Positions 44,550 through 47,869 of a stretch of DNA of 64,000 nt are shown in pieces. The notes beneath the pieces were generated by a model that worked only from the letters and a program-made list of their open reading frames with translations, ran no database searches and was not told where the DNA came from. Numbering within the stretch: the first letter of the stretch is position 1; every line of letters starts with the position of its first letter. A program made the position numbers and the translations under genes. The DNA is from Pedobacter sp. MC2016-24 (lineage in GTDB: Bacteria > Bacteroidota > Bacteroidia > Sphingobacteriales > Sphingobacteriaceae), in assembly GCF_015223055.1 (NCBI RefSeq), contig NZ_JADFBX010000017.1, positions 1-64,000 of the forward strand, in the 5' to 3' direction.

Positions 44550-44927
44550 ATGAAAACAGACTTTGTAGAAATATTTCAAACCATAAGGGCTGCTTTACAG
44601 CCTTACGCAACTTTAGGATTCGACAATAGGATAAACAGTGAAGATACTTATGACCTTTGGAGTAATAAGAACGTGGAAATAGAAGGGAAAAAAAGGAATG
44701 AGGTTTATTTTGCTGCAGTCATGATTCATAAAGGTCATGTTGGTTTTTATTTTATGCCCGTGTATGCTGAACCTGAAATGAAAAAGATATTTGACCCGGC
44801 GTTATTGAAGTTATTGAAAGGTAAATCATGTTTTCACATTAAAAAGCTGGATGATACATTGCTTTCTCAAATAGAAGAAGCATTGGCCAATGGCTTTAAA
44901 CTGTATAAGGAGCGGGGTTGGGTATAG
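44550..44927 (+). CDS. DUF1801-like protein
   Basis: A 125-residue protein of the YdhG/DUF1801 type: an N-terminal helix, the beta-strand VYFAAVMIHKGHVGFYFMPV (about 51-70), then MKKIFDPALLKLLKGKSCFHIKKLDD, given here in order at about 75-102, and a closing helix. DUF1801 proteins have a ferredoxin-like fold of unknown function. The gene's last 10 bases overlap the start of the next gene. Confidence 0.75.
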   Translation: MKTDFVEIFQTIRAALQPYATLGFDNRINSEDTYDLWSNKNVEIEGKKRNEVYFAAVMIHKGHVGFYFMPVYAEPEMKKIFDPALLKLLKGKSCFHIKKLDDTLLSQIEEALANGFKLYKERGWV

Positions 44928-45715
44928 CAAAAAATTGGCAGGAACAGGTTGTTTATGAACTGACTGAGCAAGGGTTTGAGCTGGAACGCCTGGCGCACGA
45001 CCGTTTTGATCTGTTATTTTGCAATCGACAATTGATTTTAAACCTGGTACCTTTAATCAATGATTATAGTCCTGAACATTTGCTTGAAATCCAAACGCTT
45101 TACCAAAATCAGGGCGTTTACCTGCTTCAACTGTGGGAAGATGTGTGGCAGGTTAGGAAAACACAGGTATTGGGAAGGATGAATGCTATTTTAGGTTTAA
45201 ACCGTCGAATGCATGGCCGCAAAGGTGTAGTGCTTAAACTTAATCAAAAACAGGCAGATGATTTTCTAACCATGAACCACATTCAGGCTTCTGCAAAATC
45301 AAAATATAAATTTGGTTTATTCATTGATGAAGAACTGGTTGCTGTGGCGTGTTTTAGCGGTCTCAGACCGATGAAACATATTGCGCCAGATTACAAGTCT
45401 ATCGAATTGATCCGCTTTGCAACTTTAATCGGCATTACGGTTACCGGTGGATTTAGTAAATTGCTAAAACATCTGATCAGGCTTGCCGGGCCGGATGACG
45501 TGATGAGCTATGCAGACAGGGACTGGTCGCTGGGCCAGGCTTATGACCTTGGTGGTTTTAAGCTGGTTGACACCAGTCCGCCTGCCGAAATCTGGATTTC
45601 AACAACACATTTAACCAGGTATTTTGTGCATCGCCGGCCTGTAGCAACTGAAACAGACACGACTTACCTAAAAATATTTAATACAGGAAATCTAAAATAC
45701 ATCTTATACTTGTAA
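44918..45715 (+). CDS. Phage/homing-endonuclease-type nuclease-GNAT-like protein
   Basis: A 265-residue protein. No ATG is available near the start; TTG at 44918 is chosen, inside the end of the DUF1801 gene. Residues about 1-95 look like a Vsr/PD-(D/E)xK-type half: HDRFDLLFCNRQLILNLVP, then VYLLQLWEDVWQVRKTQVLG, where phage proteins have a similar E-D-x-W segment. Residues about 120-255 carry the second half seen in those phage proteins: FLTMNHIQASAKSKYKFGLF, ELIRFATL, VTGGFSKLLKHLI, MSYADRDWSLGQAYDLGGF. I recall this layout from phage and homing-endonuclease-associated proteins. Here it lies between housekeeping genes, ending exactly where miaA begins. Nuclease activity is not shown. Confidence 0.65.
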   Translation: MGIAKNWQEQVVYELTEQGFELERLAHDRFDLLFCNRQLILNLVPLINDYSPEHLLEIQTLYQNQGVYLLQLWEDVWQVRKTQVLGRMNAILGLNRRMHGRKGVVLKLNQKQADDFLTMNHIQASAKSKYKFGLFIDEELVAVACFSGLRPMKHIAPDYKSIELIRFATLIGITVTGGFSKLLKHLIRLAGPDDVMSYADRDWSLGQAYDLGGFKLVDTSPPAEIWISTTHLTRYFVHRRPVATETDTTYLKIFNTGNLKYILYL

Positions 45716-46648
45716 ATGCAACATTATCCCTTATTCGTGCTATTGGGGCCCACTGCTTCTGGTAAAACAAAACTGGCTGTAGCGCTTGCCGAAATTTTGG
45801 ATGCGGAAATTCTCAGCGCAGACAGCAGGCAGGTATTCAGGGGCATGGACATCGGTACTGGAAAAGACCTTGCTGAATACCAGATCCAGGGTAAACAAAT
45901 TCCTTATCATTTGATTGACATTAAAGATGCCGGGGAAAAATACAATGTAAACGAATTTAAAGATGATTTTTACCTGGCTTTTGATGGAATTACACAAAGG
46001 AATAAATTAGCCTTGCTCTGCGGTGGTACGGGGATGTATATTCATGCACTCCTGCAGGATCATAGTTATACCGCAATTCCAGCCAACGAAATACTCAGAC
46101 CCGAACTAGAACTTCTGGAGACTGATTTGCTTCATCGCAGGCTGATGGCTTATCGTTTGGAACTGCGGAGTCAGGCTGATTTTTCGTCCCGGAAACGGGT
46201 AATTCGCGCTATTGAAATTGCAGAATACTTGCAGCATCATGAACTGATCGTACCAGAAAGACCTTTAATGCGGCCATTTGTTGTTGGTTTAACCTCAGAC
46301 GTAGTGCTTAGGCGTAAAAGAATTGTAGATCGGTTGGAACTGCGCTTAAAAGGGGGGATGATTGAAGAAGTGCAATCGCTGCTGGCTCGGGGATTGAGTA
46401 AAGATATGCTTAACTTTTACGGACTGGAATATAAACTGATCGGCGCTTACCTTTTTGGTGAAATAGATTATGGAATGCTTAAAGAGCGCTTAGAGATAGA
46501 GATTCGACAATTTGCTAAAAGACAAATGACCTTTTTCAGGAAAATGGAAAAGGATGGTGTGCGCATCCATTGGTTTAATACAGACGAGAATTCCGATGAG
46601 TTATTGTTGTCTGTGCTTAACTTGTACCGTCAGCAATTTAATTTGTAG
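45716..46648 (+). CDS. miaA: tRNA dimethylallyltransferase
   Basis: A 310-residue enzyme that attaches the dimethylallyl group to A37 of tRNAs reading UNN codons. Seen are the P loop LGPTASGKTKLAVALA (about 9-24), EILSADSRQVFRGMDIGTGK (about 32-51), PYHLIDIKDAGEKYNVNEF (about 62-80) and GGTGMYIHALLQ (about 103-114), with RKRVIRAIEIAEYL (about 163-176) and a C-terminal FYGLEYKLIGAYLFGE. Length is normal. The ATG directly follows the stop of the upstream gene. Together with the genes before it, it may share a transcript. Confidence 0.96.
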   Translation: MQHYPLFVLLGPTASGKTKLAVALAEILDAEILSADSRQVFRGMDIGTGKDLAEYQIQGKQIPYHLIDIKDAGEKYNVNEFKDDFYLAFDGITQRNKLALLCGGTGMYIHALLQDHSYTAIPANEILRPELELLETDLLHRRLMAYRLELRSQADFSSRKRVIRAIEIAEYLQHHELIVPERPLMRPFVVGLTSDVVLRRKRIVDRLELRLKGGMIEEVQSLLARGLSKDMLNFYGLEYKLIGAYLFGEIDYGMLKERLEIEIRQFAKRQMTFFRKMEKDGVRIHWFNTDENSDELLLSVLNLYRQQFNL

Positions 46649-46697
46649 CACAGGTTTAAAAGGAGTGGCATGAGGTTTGTTTATTCACCTATATAAA

Positions 46698-47204
46698 ATG
46701 AAACATACCATGAAAAGAGCAACGAAAATCCTGGCTTCTGCAGTAGCTGTAGCAGCTTTATTTATGACCACAAGTGCTAGTGCACAGACAAAACTGGGTA
46801 TCGGATTAAACCTTGGCGTGCCAACAAGTGACGGATATAGTTTTGCAGTTGGGGGAGACGCAAGGGTACAATTTGATGTCTCTAAACAAGTTTCCATCCC
46901 GGTAACTACTGGATATACCCACTTTATTGGTAAAGACAATGTACCTGATTATGGTTACATCCCTTTGAAAACTGGTGTCAAAGTATTTTTTGACCAAACT
47001 GGATCTGGTTTATATGGTTTAGGTGAAATTGGTGCTGCGTTTGGCGTATCAAGTGGAGCCGGAACTTCCTTTTTGTATTCTCCTGCTTTAGGTTATTCCT
47101 GGAGTAATGGATTAGATTTGGGCGTAAAATACGAGGGACTATCCAAAAATAGCATAAACACCGGACAGGTTGCTTTGCGCCTGGCATACGGGTTTAAATT
47201 GTAG
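46698..47204 (+). CDS. Small outer-membrane beta-barrel protein, paralogue 1
   Basis: A 168-residue exported protein. The ATG at 46698 is listed; an inner ATG at 46710 gives a start that aligns better with its paralogue at 47342. The signal peptide ends in TSASAQ. The mature part has eight or so alternating amphipathic strands, with LGIGLNLGVPTSDGYSFAVG and a final VALRLAYGFKL, typical of OmpW/OprF-like small barrels in Bacteroidota. It shares plan and C-terminus (ALRLAYxFKL) with the next gene. Its role (porin, stress or structural) is unknown. A strong terminator follows at 47222-47260. Confidence 0.85.
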   Translation: MKHTMKRATKILASAVAVAALFMTTSASAQTKLGIGLNLGVPTSDGYSFAVGGDARVQFDVSKQVSIPVTTGYTHFIGKDNVPDYGYIPLKTGVKVFFDQTGSGLYGLGEIGAAFGVSSGAGTSFLYSPALGYSWSNGLDLGVKYEGLSKNSINTGQVALRLAYGFKL

Positions 47205-47341: not shown

Positions 47342-47869
47342 ATGAAAAGAGTTACTAAATTATTCACTTTCACTGCGTTACTTATGGGTACTTTCGTTGC
47401 CGCAAATGCACAAATGACCGATGTAAGTAGAGGGGTTAGACTGGGTATCGGCCTCAACGGTGGGATTACTGAGAAAAATTCACCATTTAAAAATGGATAT
47501 GGTGCCGACTTAAGACTGGATTTCCAGTTGATGAAAAATGTAGCCATTACGGCTACAGGTGGTTACACACGACTGACCCGCGAAAACGGTGGCGATGATT
47601 ATGATTTTATTCCAGCTAAAGGCGGTATCAAGGTATATCCTTTAACTGCAACGGGTTTTTACGCATTGGGCGAGATTGGTGCAGGCTTCGGGATAAAAAA
47701 AGATTCTAAAACCTCATTGTTGTGGTCTGGCGGAATTGGCTACGAATGGATCAAAGGCTTAGACATCAGTACAAGATATGAAGCCTATAGTCAGGATAGT
47801 GCTTCAAGTACTTATGTCCCTTATAATGGTCAGTTTGCCTTGCGCCTGGCTTATGCCTTTAAATTGTAG
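47342..47869 (+). CDS. Small outer-membrane beta-barrel protein, paralogue 2
   Basis: A 175-residue paralogue of the preceding gene. It has a signal peptide (MKRVTKLFTFTALLMGTF, cleavage after ANAQ) and strands LGIGLNGGITEKN, VAITATGGYTRL, KVYPLTATGFYALGEIG and the ending ALRLAYAFKL. The tandem pair probably arose by duplication, and each copy has its own terminator, so they can be expressed at different times. No enzyme motif is seen. Confidence 0.88.
   Translation: MKRVTKLFTFTALLMGTFVAANAQMTDVSRGVRLGIGLNGGITEKNSPFKNGYGADLRLDFQLMKNVAITATGGYTRLTRENGGDDYDFIPAKGGIKVYPLTATGFYALGEIGAGFGIKKDSKTSLLWSGGIGYEWIKGLDISTRYEAYSQDSASSTYVPYNGQFALRLAYAFKL

Follow-up and report, generated by a model that had tools for sequence, protein, structure and literature searches.

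Mom enzymes modify the N6 of adenine in DNA (PMC7824862), and to our knowledge the known members act on DNA, not on RNA. MiaA-type enzymes are dimethylallyltransferases that prenylate adenine N6 of A37 in tRNA. In phages, the Hef-like and EDxHD homing endonucleases of PHROG 3339 and PHROG 559 have a Vsr-like domain followed by a Mom-like domain. In jumbo phages, Mom domains are fused to REase-fold nucleases, and these fusions have been proposed to shield the DNA of the phage, with other DNA as the target of the nuclease (PMC7824862). A Vsr-like domain may also serve without nuclease function, as in FASTKD4 (RAP domain), where the catalytically inactive domain serves RNA binding (PMC11879112).

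Here we describe a gene of Pedobacter sp. MC2016-24, located in a stretch of 64,000 nucleotides (the window), whose product has the same order of Vsr-like and Mom-like domains. Unlike the phage Hef-like proteins, the chromosomal protein is without their N-terminal 200-300 residues and their nuclease active site, falls in a separate clade, and is fixed beside a second, divergent miaA gene, which we call miaA2. The EDxHD homing endonucleases have an extra DNA-binding region and a sporadic mobile occurrence, and neither is found for the Mom-like protein. Like phage Mu Mom, the protein has a GNAT fold with the invariant Mom residues, but it scores below the Pfam cut-off for that family, is fused to a dead nuclease domain, and is partnered with MiaA2. 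FASTKD4, a eukaryotic mitochondrial protein without a Mom-like domain, is like it in mode only.

Results

The Mom-like gene is an open reading frame at 44918-45715 (+ strand) of the window, which encodes 265 amino acids from a TTG start. The start is 10 bp inside the preceding 125-residue gene (44550-44927, + strand), and the stop codon (45713-45715) is followed at once by the ATG of miaA at 45716, as the preliminary description had it. The four motifs that were quoted there, LWEDVW, FLTMNHIQ, GGFSKLLKHLI and YADRDWSLG, are all present in the protein, which has a net charge near neutral (+2) and a pI of 8.4. The neighbours in the window, read from their translations, are a topoisomerase, a metal-dependent hydrolase, miaA, outer-membrane proteins and citrate synthase. 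No phage genes were seen among them, consistent with the earlier remark that there is no prophage around, and a prophage remnant was rejected on the basis of stable synteny and the lack of phage neighbours. Two similar 175-residue outer-membrane-type proteins are encoded in tandem downstream of miaA2, at 46677-47204 and 47342-47869.

The reading frame is a real gene and not a chance ORF. It is present in a single copy with no internal stop in all 36 Pedobacter genomes of one draw (35 relatives and the organism's own), and it was found again in every genome of the genus in a second draw. Homologues in Pedobacter are recognisable down to 37-45% identity, and some, not all, of the other genera of the family also have the gene. 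Many relatives likewise have a TTG or GTG start and overlap the gene upstream.

The gene is syntenic in every Pedobacter locus examined, and the order is a metal-hydrolase or topoisomerase gene, a DUF1801-like gene, the Mom-like gene and miaA. The DUF1801-like gene is the 125-residue upstream neighbour, which has weak similarity to PF08818 (19.9 bits, below the 27.2 cut-off). It precedes the Mom-like gene in nearly all Pedobacter loci and is absent from that place in other genera, and thus it is probably not part of the module. Outside Pedobacter, only the pairing of the Mom-like gene with miaA2 persists; this is the sole recurrent neighbour pair beyond single genera, and no other neighbour of MiaA2 is conserved beyond that range. 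An oxidoreductase-like gene (as at L055 2072-3244, - strand) is found near the pair in 15 of the examined loci, mostly of genus g25. In this genus it separates the Mom-like gene from miaA2 and has their orientation. In members of family f30 (L155 4640-5530, L156 4600-5445), about 25 additional residues are inserted between the two central strands of the Mom-like domain, and in L156 the gene does not adjoin miaA2.

The full-length protein was modelled with a pLDDT of 94.9. The top Foldseek match in the PDB is phage Mu Mom (8bv8, 1.5e-7), in keeping with the GNAT-like second domain that had been anticipated, and VIA aligned the same structure with Z = 13.7 over 158 residues, the longest alignment among the matches listed. 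The sequence profiles agree, as hhalign against the Mom family gave 95% and 3.6e-8, and PHROG 1384 (Mom-like DNA modification proteins) matched residues 105-264 with 8.4e-7. The Pfam Mom family, PF25680, scored 15.4 bits, under its gathering cut-off of 27.1, and NCBIfam also gave only a sub-threshold match, so automatic annotation would not name this protein. Sequence searches of the PDB returned nothing meaningful, whether the query was the protein or a profile of it; only the fold comparison was informative.

The invariant residues of the Mom alignment are H58, E108, L109, R111 and D149. Their equivalents are H121 (codon 45278-45280, + strand), E163, L164 and R166 in the stretch E163-L164-I165-R166 (45404-45415, + strand; Mom E108-L109-N110-R111), and D200 (45515-45517, + strand). 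Among 57 chromosomal homologues, H121 and D200 are kept in 57, E163 and L164 in 56, and R166 in 54. The H121 column is also His in 8 of 8 phage homologues, while that of D200 is Asp in 5, Asn in 2 and Ser in 1. Mom S124, whose mutant S124A is inactive according to the title of PDB entry 8bv8, aligns ambiguously, with S180 in one alignment and with G178 in another. The predicted structure and the alignments together show that the C-terminal half (residues 104-265 plus stop, 45227-45715, + strand) is a Mom-type GNAT domain that retains the invariant Mom residues.

The N-terminal domain (residues 1-103, 44918-45226, + strand, including at its start the 10 bp shared with the preceding gene) has a Vsr/EDxHD fold. 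When the N-terminal 104 residues were modelled alone, the best VIA match was 3r3p, the catalytic domain of the EDxHD/Vsr-type homing nuclease I-Bth0305I, with Z = 10.0, 90 of 98 residues aligned, and 2.5 Å. The proposal of a Vsr-like nuclease half is thus borne out as far as the fold is concerned. The catalytic residues tell otherwise. The catalytic E, D, E and H are kept in 6-8 of 8 phage homologues (for the phage Hef-like proteins, D in 8, E in 7 and H in 7 of 8) and are lost in the chromosomal family, where most members have L, I, V or S in place of the D, and the E and H columns hold unrelated residues in nearly all. The conservation of catalytic residues, which the preliminary description had proposed as a check, is not found for the nuclease. 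The mean pairwise identity within the genus is 26% for residues 1-65 versus 50% for residues 104-226. From these alignments, the domain is shown to have kept the fold of a nuclease and to have lost its active site.

The layout had been likened to that of phage homing-type proteins, and it is indeed found in the phage Hef-like homing endonucleases. Residues 56-230 correspond to the C-terminal part of these enzymes (PHROG 3339, 6.1e-42; PHROG 559, 2.8e-29), hhalign against the phage Hef-like proteins gave 8e-56, and the best matches in BFVD, which are predicted structures, are phage endonuclease-like proteins with TM 0.85. These relatives are widespread, with 380 phage records. The identity to them is about 30-34% over residues 50-262, and most of them are 460-540 residues long, compared with about 265 for the chromosomal protein. 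We chose to root the tree of the Mom-like proteins on the phage sequences; in it, the chromosomal homologues form a clade apart from every phage homologue sampled (support 100).

A plasmid search gave one weak match only. A single viral contig, IMG/VR 2634166314_000002 (L292 1-1789), a predicted provirus, has both the Mom-like gene and miaA2. The two genes overlap there, near the contig end and beside a tyrosine-integrase-like gene, and they could be either flanking host DNA or a mobile cassette. A phage origin of the cassette was rejected, as both genes are on only this one viral contig, near the provirus end and possibly in host flank.

The adjoining gene had been named miaA. It does belong to the MiaA family, but it is not the canonical gene. 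The window gene (45716-46648, + strand) is a divergent second paralogue, and the canonical copy of the same genome is on contig C23 (G000:C23). The canonical MiaA proteins, of C23 and of related genera without the Mom-like gene, are only about 32% identical to the MiaA2 of the window, and MiaA2 forms a deep clade separate from them (support 100) and is not their orthologue. MiaA2 scores 174.8 bits with TIGR00174 (tRNA A37 dimethylallyltransferase), above the cut-off of 148.65, and it keeps the catalytic motifs, namely the P-loop GPTASGKT, ADSRQ, GGTG and KRQMTxFRK. It differs from the canonical enzyme by IGTGKD for IGTAKP, GLEYK for VGY, and a KMEKDG insert. The scores with which MiaA2 was called split cleanly, at least 170 bits against at most 133 bits. 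By this measure it is present in 74 of 395 Bacteroidia genomes, nearly all of which have canonical MiaA too.

In this one draw of 395 Bacteroidia genomes, whose taxa are given as codes, the Mom-like gene is present in 44. MiaA2 was found in 42 of these 44 carriers versus 32 of the 351 non-carriers (Fisher 8e-34, without phylogenetic correction), so that 2 genomes have the Mom-like gene alone and 32 have MiaA2 alone. The pair is within 1.3 kb in 30 of the 42 genomes, always on the same strand and always with the Mom-like gene upstream, and the synteny with miaA in relatives, which had been proposed as a check, is thus seen, with miaA2 as the partner. In the other 12, the two genes are on different contigs. 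Seven families that are variable for both genes are fully concordant, and two families have a lone Mom-like carrier without MiaA2. A mirror-tree comparison of the two proteins gave r = 0.84, and 0 of 2000 permutations were as high. With either gene, one genome of family 1 (G087) is nearest to members of family 11, as would follow from a joint transfer of the two. In family f84, MiaA2 is universal, and the Mom-like gene is confined to one genus; there the Mom-like gene is closest to an f12 lineage while MiaA2 is native. Apparently these lineages had MiaA2 first and gained the Mom-like gene later, at an unlinked site. The gene counts and trees show that the Mom-like gene is co-inherited with the second, divergent MiaA paralogue. 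In a literature search of partial coverage, with the main Mom papers outside it, no description of the pair was found.

A gene of the MiaE type (PF06175) is present in the organism's own genome (G000:C1:968417-968983) and in 279 of the 395 Bacteroidia genomes, above the expectation from its usual proteobacterial association. A link of the Mom-like gene to this tRNA hydroxylase was rejected, as MiaE occurs in 32 of 44 genomes with and 247 of 351 genomes without the Mom-like gene (Fisher p 0.86).

Discussion

The explanation that we favour, with moderate confidence, is that the dead-nuclease Mom-type protein and MiaA2 constitute a nucleic-acid modification module, most likely for tRNA. Action of both proteins on one RNA pool would best account for the inheritance of a Mom-type enzyme together with a second MiaA. 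In this mechanism, the dead nuclease domain would be a platform for nucleic-acid binding, by analogy with FASTKD4. The Mom-type domain would transfer an acyl-type group, and its acceptor would be a base of an RNA, most likely adenine of a tRNA; MiaA2 would prenylate adenine N6 in the same pool. The two-gene module would then sit on top of canonical MiaA. Several observations weigh against this explanation: the known Mom enzymes act on DNA, protein N-acetyltransferases score as high as Mom in VIA with the full-length model (Z 14.6 versus 13.7), the equivalents of Mom S124 and Y159 are less clear, the net charge of the protein is near neutral, and each of the two genes also occurs without the other. 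More tentatively, we suggest that the two proteins might jointly make an unknown hypermodified adenosine in the tRNA or other RNA of Bacteroidia.

Could the protein instead modify DNA bases, as Mu Mom does? It would then mark the bacterial chromosome, for epigenetic purposes or self-protection, and MiaA2 would act on DNA or be linked indirectly. The closest characterised fold relative does act on DNA, and for the REase-Mom fusions a role in protecting phage DNA has been proposed (PMC7824862). However, the partner with which the gene is co-inherited is a paralogue of MiaA, a type of enzyme that modifies RNA, neither a restriction partner nor a matching defence model was seen, and the nuclease half is dead. 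We regard this as unlikely. We think it equally doubtful that the Mom-like domain serves MiaA2 as a regulatory or accessory subunit, one that binds or presents the RNA and is not itself a transferase. Such a subunit would fit the strict co-occurrence, the gene order and the co-evolution, and the column of Mom Y159 is Tyr in only 30 of 57 chromosomal homologues. However, H, E, R and D of the predicted active site are invariant or nearly so, beyond what a scaffold needs, and D200 is stricter in the chromosomal family than in the phage proteins.

It is more improbable still that the protein is an N-acetyltransferase of the RimI/Naa type, with MiaA2 or a ribosomal protein, for example, as the substrate. 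VIA with the full-length model gave Z up to 14.6 for GNATs of this type, RimI and Naa50, but over shorter alignments than that with Mom, which is also the top Foldseek match. In addition, the sequence profiles link the protein to Mom and not to RimI, and the fusion is to a domain of a nucleic-acid-binding type. An active domesticated nuclease or an anti-phage defence protein is very improbable in spite of the Vsr/EDxHD fold and the homing-endonuclease relatives, since the catalytic D, E and H columns are lost in the chromosomal members, no PADLOC defence model matched the protein at E 1, there is no defence context, and, unlike typical defence genes, this one has stable synteny and is present in every member of the genus.

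The earlier suggestion of a domesticated nuclease or defence protein thus stands in its first word. Judged from its sequence, the Mom-like protein is chromosomally domesticated and not an active nuclease. The simplest history that we can infer begins with the capture of a phage-type protein, which shed the N-terminal extension together with the nuclease site and spread alongside miaA2. A family of mobile phage proteins would thereby have given rise to a fixed gene of the cell, with the nuclease function lost and the modifying domain kept. The inheritance of this gene follows that of a second MiaA and no defence gene.

If the proposed modification module is correct, it would mark the first instance in which a cell uses a Mom-type enzyme on RNA. 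The enzyme would derive from a phage homing endonuclease, with the nuclease domain turned into a platform for RNA binding. The link to MiaA2 gives a specific partner and a substrate class to an otherwise unannotated protein family, and it suggests that a nucleic-acid modification, so far not sought, is present in the many Bacteroidia that have two miaA genes.
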